Shown piece after piece: positions 28,275-35,110 of a stretch of DNA of 64,000 bases. The translations under genes were made by a program, and so were the position numbers. Position 1 is the first letter of the stretch. Every line of letters begins with the position of its first letter. The stretch is taken from NCBI RefSeq assembly GCF_012971745.1, contig NZ_CP048834.1:1488001-1552000 (forward strand), in the 5' to 3' direction. The DNA is from Starkeya sp. ORNL1 (GTDB lineage Bacteria > Pseudomonadota > Alphaproteobacteria > Rhizobiales > Xanthobacteraceae). The notes under the pieces are model-generated. The model ran no database searches and was not told the origin of the DNA. It saw nothing but the letters and a program-made list of their open reading frames with translations.

Positions 28275-28961
28275 TCAGCGCCGGAGGGCGGGGAGCGCCT
28301 TGTCGATGCCGGTGAGCGGCAGCTTGAGGTTCACCGTCTTGCCGTCGGCGAGCACGAACGCCGCGGTCGCCTCGCTGCCGGCGACCAGTTCCTTGGCGAA
28401 GGCGTCGTCGAACGGCCCGCGGGCGTCGCAGCCGCGCTGTTCGCACAGCACGAAATCGACCTTGCGCGGCTTGCCGGCGCCGACCGTCAGCTGGACGCCT
28501 TCCTGCACCCGGACGCCGAGCGGCGTGCGTACCGCGAAGACCGGCTTGCCGTCATTGTCCTGGCCGATCTGCCAGACGAACACGCTTTGCTTGGTCTTCT
28601 TGCTGGAGATCTGCATGACGGCGGAGCAGTTGCGCTTGCTCGACTTGCCGACGGTGTCGCGACAGGTGACCACCCAATTGTCGTAGACGATGGTCTCGGT
28701 GCGCACCGGAGCCGTAGGCTGCGCCGGTGCGCCCGGCTGGGCTGGTGCGGCGGCCTGGCCGGCCGCCGGCTTCGGCGCGGTCTGCGCCACCGGCTTCTGG
28801 GCCGGGGCGGCCTGGACCGGTTTCAGCGGCGCCGACTGCACCGGTGCGGTCTGGGCGCTGGCCAAAGTCGGCACAAGAAAAGCGAGCACGGTGGCGGAAG
28901 CCAGCGTGGCGATCGTCCGCTTCGCGCGGGGACCGGCAGGCGCGTTATGCATATTGAACAT
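28275..28961 (-). CDS. Invasion-associated locus B (IalB) family protein
   Basis: This 228-residue exported protein has an N-terminal signal peptide (TIATLASATVLAFLVPTLASA) followed by a long Pro/Ala/Gln-rich linker (residues about 38-90). The IalB domain then covers the C-terminal 130 residues: DNWVVTCRDT, the CSAVMQIS strand, and DFVLCEQRGCDARGPF with paired cysteines. IalB proteins are widespread in Hyphomicrobiales, including non-pathogens; the name comes from Bartonella. The start at 28961 gives the best signal peptide. It is a single gene upstream of the autotransporter's 3' end. Confidence 0.88.
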   Translation of the reverse strand: MFNMHNAPAGPRAKRTIATLASATVLAFLVPTLASAQTAPVQSAPLKPVQAAPAQKPVAQTAPKPAAGQAAAPAQPGAPAQPTAPVRTETIVYDNWVVTCRDTVGKSSKRNCSAVMQISSKKTKQSVFVWQIGQDNDGKPVFAVRTPLGVRVQEGVQLTVGAGKPRKVDFVLCEQRGCDARGPFDDAFAKELVAGSEATAAFVLADGKTVNLKLPLTGIDKALPALRR

Positions 28962-29071
28962 TATGGTGCCTCGTGTCGGGCGCCGGGCAGCGGTCAGTTT
29001 GGCGCCTGCCGCGACGAAATTGGGCCGATCCTGTGCGGACCGGCCCATCGATAGTCACTCCAAGAGATTCC

Positions 29072-29098
29072 GGCAAGGAGCGCGAAGCGCTCCCTGCC
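29072..29098 (-). terminator. Hairpin after the autotransporter gene
   Basis: On the minus strand, GGCAGGGAGCGC and GCGCTCCTTGCC form a 12-bp stem around TTC, 7 nt after the autotransporter stop. There is one mismatch and no long T-tract. Stability and position support a terminator. Confidence 0.6.
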
Positions 29099-29104
29099 TT
29101 TTCC

Positions 29105-32100
29105 TCACCAGCGGACCTTGACGCCCGCGGTACCGGCCCAACCTTCGACGTCGCCGAAGTTGTACTCGCCGCTGCCGTACACCGCGACATTCTCGGTGAT
29201 CGCGGCATTGAAGCCCGCACCCGCATTGTACCAGGTGCCGCCGATGTCGCTGGCGAGGATGACGCCGGAGACGTTGGTGTTGTTGTCACCCGCGAACTCG
29301 GACAGCACGTTGAAGATCGCCCAGGGGGTGATCGCCATGCCGTTCGCCGCGGTGACCGTGGTCTGCAACTGCAGACCGAGGCGGCCGACCAGGGAGTCCG
29401 CATCGTCCGGCCTGACTTCGACGCCGTTCGAGGCGGTGTAGGCGTCCTGGCTGACATTGACGTAAGTCAACTGGCCCTGCGGCTGGACGACGAAGCCATT
29501 GCCGAGGTCGAAGCCGTAGCCGACTTCACCCGAACCACCCCATGCGGTGGCGTTGGTGCTGGCCTTGAAGTCGTTGCCGTCGCCGTCCACGTCGCCGTTC
29601 ATGTCGACGTCGAGCACGTCCACCTTGCCGACGAGGTCGACATACCAGCCGGTGCCCGGAAGGCCGCCGACCTGGCGGAAGGTGGCGTAGATACCGGCGT
29701 TCCAGCCGTTGATATCAAGGTTGGACTTGTCGTTGCCGTAGAAGAAGGTGTCGTGAACGTCGGCCTTGGACCAGCCATAGCCGCCGAAGGCGCCGAAGCT
29801 GATGCGCGAGGCGTTGTAGTCGAAGGTGTAGTCGGCACCACCCTGCAGGCCGTAGGTGGTCTGGTCGAAGTCCCAGCCCTTGTCGACTTCGTAGGACAGG
29901 TCGGCGCCGCCACCGCGGATCCAGGCCTGCCACTTCGGCGCCGGCGCCGGGATATAGGCCGGAGCCTTGGTCGCGAGGTCGGCGTTGCGGCCTTCCAGCG
30001 AGTCCTGCTGCTTCAGCTCACCGAGGCGCTTATAGAGCGTGTCCATGCCAGCGTAGAAGTGCCGCTGGGCCGCCGAGGATGCCGTGGCAAAGGTGCCCGT
30101 GCCCTCGACGAGGTCGGAGCGCAGGTACCAGTCGCCGTCGGTCTCCGACTGGAACAGCCGGTAAGCGAAGACGCCGTCGATCACTTCCCGAGCGCCGGTA
30201 TTCTTGTTGATGCCGAGTGCGAAGGCATCTTCCGCCGACACGTTCGAGCCGCTGGAGTCGACGATCTTGATACCATCCTGGTCGCCGAGGCCGGTGAAGG
30301 TGCCGTTTCCAGGCGCAGCGTTCGCCACATAGACGGTGGTGACGTAGCCGCTGTCCTTGATCTCTCCGTTCACACGCAGCAGGTCGGTGTCGGAGTTGCT
30401 GTCACCAAGCACGGTGTCGATGGCAAGGTTGCCACCGCCCTCGTAGGTGCCGTGGATCGTCAGACGGTCCGCGGCATAGGTGTCGCGCATATTGACGGTG
30501 CCGTAGTTTATGAACTCCACCGAATTATTGTTGGAGCCGATCTCGACACGAGCCTGGCCGGTATAGGTGAGGTCGAGCACGCCACCCGGATTTGCAAGCC
30601 CGTTATACTGGTCACCGACATCGAGCACTGCGCCGTTACGGCCCACGCCGTCGTCGAGCACGAAAGTATTGGTCTCGAGATCAGCGAACCGGTCGGAGAG
30701 CTTCAGCACCGAGGTGCCGCTGACGTACACCAGGCCGGAGCCGTCATTGGCGAGGAAGCGGTAATTATCGCCGGTCAGGTCGAGGCGCGAATTGCCGACC
30801 ACGTAGAGCTGCTGCCAGCGCTCGACTTCGTCGAGCTCGAGGTTGCTGTCCGCGGCGACGACCATCACGTCGTAACCGCGTCCGCCATCGACTTCGCCGT
30901 TGAAGTGGAAGTTGGTGTTGTTGCCGACGTTGTCGAGGTTGACCATGAGCAGGAAGTCGTCGTCGTCGTTGCCTTCGATGTCCTCACCGATGGTGATGGA
31001 GTTGGTGTTGAAGGCAGCGATGACAATGTTGTCGTCGCCGTCACCACCCTCGACATCACCGCGGATATCGATGTCGCCGCCATTGGTGGCGAGCAGGCCG
31101 ATGAAGTCGCCGCCATCGCCACCGGAAACGTCGCCATCGACATCAACCAGGCCGCCACGATTGGCGAAGAGGAAGATGCTGTCGCCGCCCGAACCGCCGC
31201 TCACATCGCCGTCGACATAGATGTTGCCGCCGCGATCCGCGATCAGAGCGAGGTTGTCGATGCCGGAATTGCCTTCGACATTGCCGTCGACGCGAACGTC
31301 ACCGCCGCGGGTGGCGAGCAGGGTGATGTCGTCGCCGTCATCGCCGCCCTGGACGTCATCGCGGACGTGGACTTCGCCGCCGCGATCCGCTGCCAGCAGG
31401 ATGCTGTCGTAGCCGTCATTGCCCTGCACATCGTCATCGACGTGGATTTCAGCGCCGCGCGTGGCGATCAGCGCGATATTGTCCTGACCGTTACCACCTT
31501 CGACGTCCTCGCCGACATCGATGTCGCTGCGGCGACCGCTGGCGAAGAGCAGGATGTTGTCGTTGTCGTCGCCGCCCTCGACGTTTTCGTCGACATTGAC
31601 GTCGCCACCGCGGGTCGCGATCAGCGCAATGTTGTCGATGCCGCTGCCGCCACGGACGTTATCGTCGACATTGACGTTGCCGCCGCGGCTCGCCGCCAGC
31701 GTGATGTAGTCGCTGCCGCTGCCGCCATCGACATTGCCGTCGACATCGATATCGCCGCCGCGGTCCGCTGCCAGCAGGATGTGGTCGCTGCCGTCATTGC
31801 CCTCGACGTCGTCATTGATGTCGATCTCGGCGCCGCGCGTCGCGATCAGAGCGATATTGTCCTGGCCGTTGCCGCCTTCGACGTCCTCGTCGACTTCGAT
31901 GTCGCTGCGACGGCCGGTGGCGAACAGCAGGATGTTGTCGTTGTCGTCGCCGCCCTGGACGCTGTCGTCGACATAGATGTCGCCGCCGTCGAAGGCGATC
32001 AGCGCGATGTTGTCGAGGCCATCGTCACCATCGACGTCGCCGTCGACATTGATGTTGCCGCCACGGCTGGCGACCAGCCCGATACTGTCGCCCTGGTTGC

Positions 32101-33985
32101 CGCCGGAGATGTCGTCGCCGACCACGATGTCGCCGCCGCGGTCCGCACGCAGGAGGATATCGTCATAGCCGTCGCCGCCATTGATGCCCTGGTCGATCTC
32201 GACCCGGCCGCCACGGTCCGCGAAAGCGAAGATGTTGTCCTGGCCATTGCCGCCGGACACTTCGTCGAAGTCGACGGTGCCGCCGCGGGTGGCGCCGAGC
32301 ACGATGGTGTCATCGCCATCGCCGCCATAGATGTCCTCGCCGCGGATCAGACCGCCAGTGGTGGCGAAGGCGCCGATGAAGTCGTTGTCGTCGCCGCCAC
32401 GAATATCGTCATCGAGAATGATGCGACCGCCGCGGCTCGCAGCGAGCAGGATGAAATCTTCGCCGTTGCCGCCAGAGATGCCCTGGTCGATCTCGACCCG
32501 GCCACCGCGATCAGCGAGTGCGACGATCGCGTCGTCGCCGTCGCCGCCGCCGAGTTCGTCGAAGTCGACGGTGCCGCCACGGGTGGCGCCGAGCACGATC
32601 GCGTCGTCGCCGTTGCCGCCGTAGATGTCTTCACCGCGGATCAGACCGCCGCGGTCAGCGAAGGCGCCGATGAAATCGTCCTGGTTGCCGCCATTGATGT
32701 CGTCGCCGAGGATGACGCGACCGCCGCGGCTGGCGCCGAGCAGGATGAAATCCTCGCCGTCGCCACCGTTGATGCCCTGGTCGATCTCGACCCGGCCGCG
32801 CCGGTCGGCGAACGCAACGATGTTGTCATCGCCGGTGCCGCCCGAGACTTCGTCAAAGTCGACCACACCGCCGCGGGTAGCGCCGAGCACGATGTCGTCA
32901 TTGCCGGAGTCGCCGTAGATATCCTCGCCGCGGATCAGGCCGCCGCGATCAGCGAAGGCGTAGATGTCGTCGTTCTGGCGGCCGCCGTGGATGTCGTCGC
33001 CAAGGATGATGTCGCCGCCGCGGCTGGCGCGCAGCAGGATGTCGTCATAGCCGTCGCCGCCGGAAATGCCCTGGTCGATCTCGACCCGGCCGCCACGGGT
33101 GGCGATCGCGGTGATGTCGTCATTGCCATCGCCGCCGCCGAGCTCGTCGAAATCGACGACGCCGCCGCGGGTCGCAATGAGCGTGATGTCGTCGTTGCCC
33201 GTGCCGCCGAAGATATCTTCGCCGCGGATCAGACCGCCGGTCGTGGCGATCGCACCGATATCATCGTTGCCACTGCCGCCGGTGATATCGTCAAAGAGGT
33301 GGATCTCGCCGCCAGCAAAGGCCGCGAGGCCAATGGTGTCGTCGTCACGGCCGCCGTTGATGCCGTCGAAGATCCGAATCTCGCCGCCGAAGCCAGCGAG
33401 TGCAAAAATCCGGTCGTCGCCGTCGCCGCCATTGATCTCGTCCGCGAAGATGTCCGCACCCGGCCCGATCGAACCCAGGATGACGGTGTCATCGCCGTCG
33501 CCGGCGAAGATGCTCTCGATATTGGTGTTTTCCTGGGGCAGGAAACCGAGGGCACCAACCACGATCAGATCATCACCGCCCGAGGTAATGATGTCGCCGC
33601 TAAGGTCCGAATTGATGACGAAGATATTGTCGTCACCATTACCCGTCAGCATCGACACGCCTAACAGATCGCCCACGTTGGCATTGTAGGCAACGATCGT
33701 CGTGTCGGTATTGAAGTTGAAGATCGGCGAGCTGGTCGGCCCCGAGTTGCCGGTGCAGAAGACAAACGGACTAACGAAATTTACTGGGCCTGGAGCGCAC
33801 GCCGCCGCCGCCGGGCTGACACCGCCGCTGGTCAGCAGCGCGGCGCCCAGCACCAGCGCGGAGGCCGAACCGAACAGCGCCCCCTTGCGGTGATCCACCT
33901 TCGTGGATGCGGGTGCATTTCGCGTGTGGCGCTGGCGGGTAATCCCGCCCTTCGCGATGTTCTTGTTCACAAACTTCCTAGCCAT
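29105..33985 (-). CDS. Giant autotransporter with nested GGxGxD-type repeats
   Basis: This 1626-residue protein has three parts. Residues 1-65 are a long basic leader then a hydrophobic stretch ending in AAA, as in autotransporters. Residues about 158-1050 hold about 36 tandem units of 24-26 residues of the form GGxGxDxIxLxAxRGGxxxxDxx, predicted to form a beta-helix; the GGxGxD turns recall RTX calcium sites. Residues about 1350-1626 are an autotransporter beta-barrel (PKWQAWIRGGGADLSYEV to GVKVRW, with the required aromatic C-terminus). Units 4-19 are four repeats of a 294-bp ABCD block; units 22-31 are two 378-bp blocks. The start at 33985 gives a normal leader; the frame extends to 34141. 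Surface adhesion or matrix function is inferred. Confidence 0.92.
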   Translation of the reverse strand: MARKFVNKNIAKGGITRQRHTRNAPASTKVDHRKGALFGSASALVLGAALLTSGGVSPAAAACAPGPVNFVSPFVFCTGNSGPTSSPIFNFNTDTTIVAYNANVGDLLGVSMLTGNGDDNIFVINSDLSGDIITSGGDDLIVVGALGFLPQENTNIESIFAGDGDDTVILGSIGPGADIFADEINGGDGDDRIFALAGFGGEIRIFDGINGGRDDDTIGLAAFAGGEIHLFDDITGGSGNDDIGAIATTGGLIRGEDIFGGTGNDDITLIATRGGVVDFDELGGGDGNDDITAIATRGGRVEIDQGISGGDGYDDILLRASRGGDIILGDDIHGGRQNDDIYAFADRGGLIRGEDIYGDSGNDDIVLGATRGGVVDFDEVSGGTGDDNIVAFADRRGRVEIDQGINGGDGEDFILLGASRGGRVILGDDINGGNQDDFIGAFADRGGLIRGEDIYGGNGDDAIVLGATRGGTVDFDELGGGDGDDAIVALADRGGRVEIDQGISGGNGEDFILLAASRGGRIILDDDIRGGDDNDFIGAFATTGGLIRGEDIYGGDGDDTIVLGATRGGTVDFDEVSGGNGQDNIFAFADRGGRVEIDQGINGGDGYDDILLRADRGGDIVVGDDISGGNQGDSIGLVASRGGNINVDGDVDGDDGLDNIALIAFDGGDIYVDDSVQGGDDNDNILLFATGRRSDIEVDEDVEGGNGQDNIALIATRGAEIDINDDVEGNDGSDHILLAADRGGDIDVDGNVDGGSGSDYITLAASRGGNVNVDDNVRGGSGIDNIALIATRGGDVNVDENVEGGDDNDNILLFASGRRSDIDVGEDVEGGNGQDNIALIATRGAEIHVDDDVQGNDGYDSILLAADRGGEVHVRDDVQGGDDGDDITLLATRGGDVRVDGNVEGNSGIDNLALIADRGGNIYVDGDVSGGSGGDSIFLFANRGGLVDVDGDVSGGDGGDFIGLLATNGGDIDIRGDVEGGDGDDNIVIAAFNTNSITIGEDIEGNDDDDFLLMVNLDNVGNNTNFHFNGEVDGGRGYDVMVVAADSNLELDEVERWQQLYVVGNSRLDLTGDNYRFLANDGSGLVYVSGTSVLKLSDRFADLETNTFVLDDGVGRNGAVLDVGDQYNGLANPGGVLDLTYTGQARVEIGSNNNSVEFINYGTVNMRDTYAADRLTIHGTYEGGGNLAIDTVLGDSNSDTDLLRVNGEIKDSGYVTTVYVANAAPGNGTFTGLGDQDGIKIVDSSGSNVSAEDAFALGINKNTGAREVIDGVFAYRLFQSETDGDWYLRSDLVEGTGTFATASSAAQRHFYAGMDTLYKRLGELKQQDSLEGRNADLATKAPAYIPAPAPKWQAWIRGGGADLSYEVDKGWDFDQTTYGLQGGADYTFDYNASRISFGAFGGYGWSKADVHDTFFYGNDKSNLDINGWNAGIYATFRQVGGLPGTGWYVDLVGKVDVLDVDMNGDVDGDGNDFKASTNATAWGGSGEVGYGFDLGNGFVVQPQGQLTYVNVSQDAYTASNGVEVRPDDADSLVGRLGLQLQTTVTAANGMAITPWAIFNVLSEFAGDNNTNVSGVILASDIGGTWYNAGAGFNAAITENVAVYGSGEYNFGDVEGWAGTAGVKVRW
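31199..31954 (-). repeat. Two 378-bp intragenic blocks in the autotransporter
   Basis: The blocks 31577-31954 and 31199-31576 each encode five units. They share GGDDNDNILLFA-GRRSDI, then GGNGQDNIALIATRGAEI, then GNDGxDxILLAADRGG. The GRRSD unit is 26 residues and the others 25, so both blocks are 126 residues long. Confidence 0.85.
32105..33280 (-). repeat. Four 294-bp intragenic blocks (ABCD) in the autotransporter
   Basis: Block boundaries fall at 33280, 32986, 32692 and 32398, exactly 294 bp apart. Each encodes 98 residues as four units ending LIRGEDIY (A), VDFDELG (B), RVEIDQGI (C) and IILGDDI (D). Divergence between blocks is mostly conservative. Confidence 0.9.
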
Positions 33986-34486
33986 AAAGGTCAGCCCCCG
34001 CTTGAACCAACTGACGTTGCGTCCGGCCCCCGCCGATCCGCCTCCGCCTGTGACCCAATCCACAATCCCGCCACACATCGGGCAGGAATCGGGACAGTCA
34101 CGATCCACGGCGACACTACCCAGCACCCGATTCCGCCACAAGCTATGAGGGTACCCGCAACCGCCAACCCCAATTAATAGCTGCCGCTCTCAGAAAAAGG
34201 TGTCATACGACCGTCAATTTCATAAAACGGCCCGGATTTCGAATTACACGAGGAATCATATGCGCTTACGGTCGGTAATCCGCCTTGTATTTTTCTCACA
34301 AATAAGCCATGATTCGCACAAATACGAAAATTGCGAGAAAATCGTATTTTTCCCGTAGCAATTGGCGGCGGTTGTGTTATTTTTACCACGGGTCACACGA
34401 AGAGGGGCGGCGGGAACGGCGGGCGACTGCCGCTTCCACGGGCAAGGGACTTTCTGCGGGGAAAGCTCGGCTCGGCTGTAAAACAT
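33986..34486. promoter_or_regulatory. AT-rich divergent intergenic region
   Basis: About 500 bp between the autotransporter and the resolvase-like gene. From about 34175 to 34390 the sequence is markedly AT-richer than its surroundings. It contains a dyad AATACGA (34321-34327)/TCGTATT (34342-34348) overlapping TTGC...GCAA (34331-34361), and a distant pair ATACGACCGT (34205-34214)/ACGGTCGGTA (34268-34277). It should contain both promoters; the dyads are candidate regulator sites. Confidence 0.55.
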
Positions 34487-35110
34487 ATGCAGATCGGATA
34501 CACGGTGCTGGGCCGGGACGGCTCAGGGCCTGCATACGCGTATGGTGAAGCGGGCGCAGGCGAGCGCGAGAGCGCCCAGGCCGCGGCCGGCGATGTCGCC
34601 GCGCTCGAAGCGCTCGGCTGCGAGAAGGTGTTCACCGATTCGGACGGCGCGCGGCGCGGCGAACGGGCCAATTTCCGCGCCGCGCTGGATTTCCTGCGTC
34701 CGGGCGACGTCCTGGTTGTACCGGCGCTGCGCCATCTCGGCAGCGACATTGAATCGATCGTGCTGCTGGTGGAGCGGCTGCGTCGTTCCGGCGTGTCGGT
34801 GCGCATCGGCGACATGATCGTGCCGCAGACGCCGACCGGCGACGCCTTCAACATGACCTGCCGGGAGTTCGCCCGGCTGGTCGAGCCGCCGCCGGAGGCG
34901 GAAACCGCGGCACCCGGCGGGGCGCGCCGGCGCGGCCGCCCGCAGGCACTCTCCGCCAAGGACCTGGCGAAGGCGCGCCGCCTGCTTGCCGAGAGCACCA
35001 TGACGGTGTCGGATGTCGCCCGCGCGCTCGGCGTCTCGCCGGCGACGGTGTACCGCTATTTCCCGCGGCGCGCGCCGAAGCCGATCCTGCCCGGCGATAC
35101 GCCGGGCTGA
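34487..35110 (+). CDS. Degenerate serine-recombinase-like protein with Hin-type HTH
   Basis: This 207-residue protein has the resolvase/invertase plan. An N-terminal domain covers residues about 1-130 (IGYTVLGRDG, then CEKVFTDSDGARRGERANFR, ALDFLRPGDVLVVPALRHLG, and TPTGDAFNMTCREFARL), followed by a linker and a C-terminal helix-turn-helix (GRPQALSAKDLAKARRLLAE, then SVSPATVYRYFP-like). Catalytic features are absent. The usual YxRVST serine motif reads YTVLGR, and the DRLGRS arginines are replaced (RHLGSD). It therefore probably binds DNA without recombining it. It is transcribed divergently from the autotransporter, suggesting a regulatory link. The start at 34487 begins the conserved fold. 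Confidence 0.8.
   Translation: MQIGYTVLGRDGSGPAYAYGEAGAGERESAQAAAGDVAALEALGCEKVFTDSDGARRGERANFRAALDFLRPGDVLVVPALRHLGSDIESIVLLVERLRRSGVSVRIGDMIVPQTPTGDAFNMTCREFARLVEPPPEAETAAPGGARRRGRPQALSAKDLAKARRLLAESTMTVSDVARALGVSPATVYRYFPRRAPKPILPGDTPG

Follow-up and report, generated by a model that had tools for sequence, protein, structure and literature searches.

What is a long array of GGxGxD repeats, arranged in blocks of fixed length, doing on an autotransporter scaffold, and why does its length change by whole blocks? The question is raised by one gene in a 64,000-nucleotide stretch of the genome of Starkeya sp. ORNL1 (contig NZ_CP048834.1, positions 1,488,001 to 1,552,000; hereafter, the window). 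We consider it probable that this gene encodes an autotransporter whose passenger is a predicted solenoid of 38 repeats, holding about one Ca2+ per coil and varying in length by whole blocks. The parts of the gene, in the coordinates of the window, are as follows.

29105..33985, minus strand: autotransporter gene, 1626 amino acids (open reading frame with ATG at 33985 and stop at 29105; homologue starts; Pfam)
33803..33985, minus strand: extended N-terminal leader, residues 1-61 (hydrophobic and Ala-rich toward its end)
30851..33646, minus strand: passenger solenoid of 38 units, residues 114-1045 (unit scan; AlphaFold2 model)
32105..33280, minus strand: four 98-residue blocks of four coils each, residues 236-627 (lag of 98 residues, or 294 nucleotides)
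31274..32029, minus strand: two 126-residue blocks of five coils each, residues 653-904 (lag of 126 residues, or 378 nucleotides)
30206..30496, minus strand: autochaperone AC_1, residues 1164-1260 (PF18883, 28.1 bits against a cut-off of 27.1)
29168..29926, minus strand: autotransporter beta-barrel, residues 1354-1606 (PF03797, E 8.5e-47; TIGR01414, E 7.7e-64)

The original prediction that the protein is an autotransporter was borne out by the PF03797 and TIGR01414 matches. The C-terminal barrel characteristic of type Va secretion is thus present, and the beta-helical passenger preceding it is present by prediction (mean predicted local distance difference test score, pLDDT, 88.3; PF18883). 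A Pfam scan of the whole protein at E 1 recognized only the barrel and the AC_1 domain. The leader, which by eye looks hydrophobic and Ala-rich and has 45 of 60 residues in common with that of the homologue P0001, is, judging by sequence, likely a signal peptide; the same MARKF/MAKK-type N-terminus opens the homologues of the gene. The type Va autotransporters Ag43, TibA and UpaB share with the window protein the barrel, the autochaperone and a predicted beta-helical passenger, but it differs from them by a GGxGxD turn in every coil and by duplications of whole-coil blocks, and the best fold match of its passenger is not an autotransporter.

A position-specific scan, trained on ten family members with the window protein among them, detected 38 units between residues 114 and 1034, against a mean of 0.57 and a maximum of four in shuffled proteins. 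The expected figure of about 36 GGxGxD units therefore holds for the relaxed motif and not for the strict one, which occurs 21 times. G1, D6 and A12 were found in all 32 consecutive aligned units and I8 in 31 of them, the unit length being 24-26 residues between residues 161 and 1005. Self-identity of residues 151-1050 reached 0.385 at a lag of 98 and 0.367 at a lag of 25 residues, whereas in 200 shuffles no lag gave more than 0.164. The four 98-residue blocks were found where they had been placed, at 32105-33280, blocks starting at residues 211, 309, 407 and 505 being another register of the same array; the units within a block measure 25, 24, 24 and 25 residues, and each coil type retains characteristic residues. 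The 126-residue pair (units of 25, 26, 25, 25 and 25 residues) was confirmed as well, since nucleotides 1840-2398 of the gene recur 378 nucleotides downstream with a 77.8% match. Recurrence at fixed length thus stands, and the blocks, formerly called exact, are so in length but not in sequence: identity is 66-80% (amino acids) and 70-82% (DNA) among the 98-residue blocks, and 71% and 79%, respectively, within the 126-residue pair.

In the AlphaFold2 model, which spans residues 61-1173 and contains no metal, the passenger is the regular beta-helix that had been anticipated, with short strands in each 24-26-residue coil and the GGxGxD loop at a constant position in the coil. The top match among solved folds, ahead by 4 Z units, was PDB 3p4g, region IV of the Marinomonas primoryensis protein MpAFP/MpIBP, and the predicted model has the same fold (the match lists were obtained for one 1113-residue and one 688-residue model, and families outside these lists may match too). 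This domain binds one Ca2+ per repeat and is termed RTX repeats by its authors (PMC4083281). By analogy, the idea of calcium in each coil gains a solved precedent, and the GGxGxD solenoid would likely hold about one Ca2+ per coil. What the two have in common is a beta-solenoid (predicted here) in which each coil carries a GxGxD-type turn. They differ in coil length, 24-26 residues versus 19-21 in region IV (PMC3492233), in unit count (38 versus 13) and in the mode of export, the window protein having an autotransporter barrel and MpAFP being a type I secreted adhesin. Residues 211-1005 gave no sequence match to 3p4g at E 10; a profile search of PDB sequences returned seven matches, every one in autotransporter barrel regions, and phmmer with the passenger returned only two antibody chains (E 2.5 and 3).

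The earlier contrast with RTX stands with respect to the period, which is not a nonapeptide, but calls for a qualification, the nearest solved fold being one that its authors term RTX repeats. The nonapeptide RTX proteins, which belong to PF00353 and are exported by type I secretion, are, like the window passenger, acidic and carry a GGxGxD turn expected to ligate Ca2+ between turns stacked on each other; the window protein, unlike them, lacks the 9-residue period and bears a barrel at its C-terminus. Its assignment to the nonapeptide proteins was rejected, as it contains no PF00353 match at E 1 and no pair of relaxed motifs nine residues apart, while the same model does find 21 places elsewhere in this genome. 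These 21 matches lie in two other open frames that are true RTX nonapeptide ones, G000:C1:4657361-4660684 and 3155290-3155475.

Thirteen of the 30 genomes sampled for the genus matched the window autotransporter at the cut-off of E 1e-3. The gene sits at a conserved locus in 11 of them, counting that of the window; G010 and G026 match only via other autotransporters. The named relatives are Ancylobacter koreensis, A. dichloromethanicus, A. polymorphus and one metagenome-assembled genome of Xanthobacteraceae. G005 and G017 have it divided between two contigs, with the expected neighbours beside each half of the gene. At the family level, the passenger occurred in six of 198 genomes and in one of 47 genera, all within its own genus, five known carriers lying outside this draw. 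The ten full-length proteins contain about 29-66 coils, one coil being added for every gap of at least 45 residues. Block number, compared among different species or metagenome relatives, is not invariant: the window protein has four 98-residue blocks, L035 three and P0001 two, the latter being identical to the window protein at 545 of the final 593 residues. The 126-residue pair is common to the window protein and P0001, and a lag of 126 is absent among the six lags listed for L035. Block size differs among species as well, the strongest lags in other members being 73, 97, 99, 174, 179, 182 and 350 residues. The order of block gain and loss is left open on four of the six inner branches.

Among 393 spacings in the ten proteins, 379 measure 23-32 residues, four 38 and nine at least 45; the single spacing below 23 sits near the N-terminus of the window protein. 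Since the nine long gaps still contain D-bearing turns, as seen by eye, these counts reveal no partial-coil junction. Unequal recombination between similar coils would leave whole-coil junctions only, without any further cause, and duplication and loss are likely the source of the whole-block length differences among species. A landing test, in which 345 of 345 units mapped onto units at 50 of 50 in-frame repeat lags, is largely circular, because homologous segments bear the same units, and the spacing counts are the fairer measure. Our search of the literature on repeat-number variation found nothing relevant.

The blocks may serve something other than reach. A tentative alternative is that they serve valency, each block displaying one binding site. 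An aromatic loop, GDG[GS][WF][FL]xxG, recurs in the turns of five of the ten full-length proteins scanned (L037, L040, L045, L046 and L047; 24 copies altogether), with 174 residues as its most regular period, and the coil types of the window's 98-residue blocks each keep residues of their own. Against this alternative, the loop is absent from the window protein, P0001, L035, L038 and L039, the last of which has different, longer insertions at its turns. Because of the loops in the five relatives, valency as well as reach may follow block number.

It is rather unlikely that the passenger is an ordinary calcium-independent autotransporter beta-helix, with GGxGxD forming a tight metal-free turn. 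Arguing against such a helix are the conservation of D6 throughout the 32 aligned units and its presence in the longer gaps of the relatives, the strongly acidic character of the solenoid, and the lead of 4 Z units with which a Ca2+-dependent domain comes out as the best fold match.

We find it quite improbable that block number provides rapid contingency, with slippage or recombination switching rod length among strains of one species. Near relatives do differ by whole blocks, some of them contain near-identical ones (a recent duplication in L045 retains 97.7% identity over 738 nucleotides), and two of the 11 orthologous genes are broken at contig ends. The window blocks, however, with their 70-82% DNA identity, fit slow change: the Nei-Gojobori method (NG86), applied to five block pairs, gave a synonymous divergence (dS) of 0.46-0.78 and a ratio of nonsynonymous to synonymous divergence (dN/dS) of 0.30-0.40, which points to old duplications kept by purifying selection. 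An ice-binding autotransporter, suggested by the Marinomonas ice-binding domain as the nearest fold, is hardly credible and was rejected, as the Thr/Asn array is missing (turn position 3 is Thr in two, position 5 is Asn in eight and both are so in one of the 38 window units).

Returning to the proposed calcium-holding solenoid, we suggest that the passenger would exit by way of its own barrel. On emerging, every coil would fold onto the preceding one and trap Ca2+ between adjacent turns, in the manner of region IV of the Marinomonas ice adhesin. Once complete, the acidic rod would remain attached to the cell, acting as a stalk or an adhesin. At a coil rise of 4.8 angstrom, its length would be about 18 nm. 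When similar coils recombine unequally, whole coils would be gained or lost in phase, and either reach or binding-site number would shift with the fold intact. For type I secretion, RTX domains are described as driving export by a Brownian ratchet (PMC8486122); carrying this ratchet over to a type V barrel is our own extension by analogy. It leads to a more speculative picture, which we offer as a possibility only: a calcium-powered surface rod, in which Ca2+ capture locks the coils and draws the chain outward, neither ATP nor an ABC transporter being needed, and whole-coil duplication tunes reach and, in some relatives, the aromatic loops (one per seven-coil block). A calcium-binding autotransporter of E. 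coli, Cah, is named in the reference list of one source (PMC9289746), and the portions of the open-access literature available to us contained no description of an MpAFP-like calcium solenoid joined to an autotransporter barrel.

Shorter coils of this kind occur in the same genome. The paralogue L033:3620-7243 (plus strand) has units of 19/20 residues with a two-coil period of 39 residues, and its passenger matches 3p4g in sequence (E 7.8e-9) as well as in predicted fold; Thr stands at position 3 in two and Asn at position 5 in one of its 18 units. Together with its homologues P0009-P0011 and L036, it resembles the window protein in having a related barrel and a GGxGxD-type solenoid, but differs from it by these unit and period lengths, the window protein having units of 24-26 residues grouped into blocks of 98 and 126. 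P0023 combines 20-residue coils with an autotransporter barrel. It finds matches in seven of the 289 genomes that represent the class, one of the seven being that of the window, and some of these matches possibly come from the barrel only. Among these matches, two minus-strand frames are rich in the motif, with a spacing of mostly 20: L087:9922-19746 (86 GGxGxD units in the 3274 residues read) and L088:4317-12905 (77 units in 2862 residues read). A Pfam scan of L088 recognized nothing, the barrel included.

Two neighbours accompany the gene.

34487..35110, plus strand: divergent gene with a resolvase-like N-domain and a helix-turn-helix (PF02796, PF00239)
28275..29048, minus strand: IalB-family gene directly downstream (PF06776, E 5e-26)

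Each of the 11 carriers has both of them next to the autotransporter, the conserved order being the divergent resolvase-like gene, the autotransporter and then IalB-Ppx/GppA-FtsJ-MFS. In G011 and G024, the resolvase-like gene stays beside IalB and the autotransporter is absent, and a second resolvase-like copy in G025 adjoins a different autotransporter, L056:5998-10440 (plus strand). The leader of the latter is very similar to that of the window autotransporter, and its passenger is different. The resolvase-like gene is a possible regulator. Phase inversion by its product is unlikely: in an alignment with the Gin invertase, the DR..R stretch, whose Arg we take to be catalytic, is not preserved in this product, the position of this Arg is occupied by His in 12 of 12 aligned homologues (retrieved by a pattern that missed those of the carriers L037 and L039), and the inverted pairs near the start number no more than three, all weak and 14-17 nucleotides long. 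A sigma-70 scan of 33600-34700 found no promoter-like site, and no tRNA was found within the window. An open frame of 1563 codons, 28973-33664 (plus strand), overlies the autotransporter gene in antisense. It was rejected as a gene and attributed to codon usage, because few stops interrupt the corresponding frame in relatives and neighbours too (0-3 in the ten autotransporter genes, 0-1 in four neighbouring genes).

Two known parts meet in the window protein, an autotransporter barrel and a predicted MpAFP-like calcium solenoid. Should calcium fold each coil, it would act as an outside switch, and the protein would therefore lend itself to a clean test of whether type V secretion is driven by the folding of the passenger. 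At a single locus, the genus itself presents one orthologous rod in a natural series of lengths, from about 29 to 66 coils.
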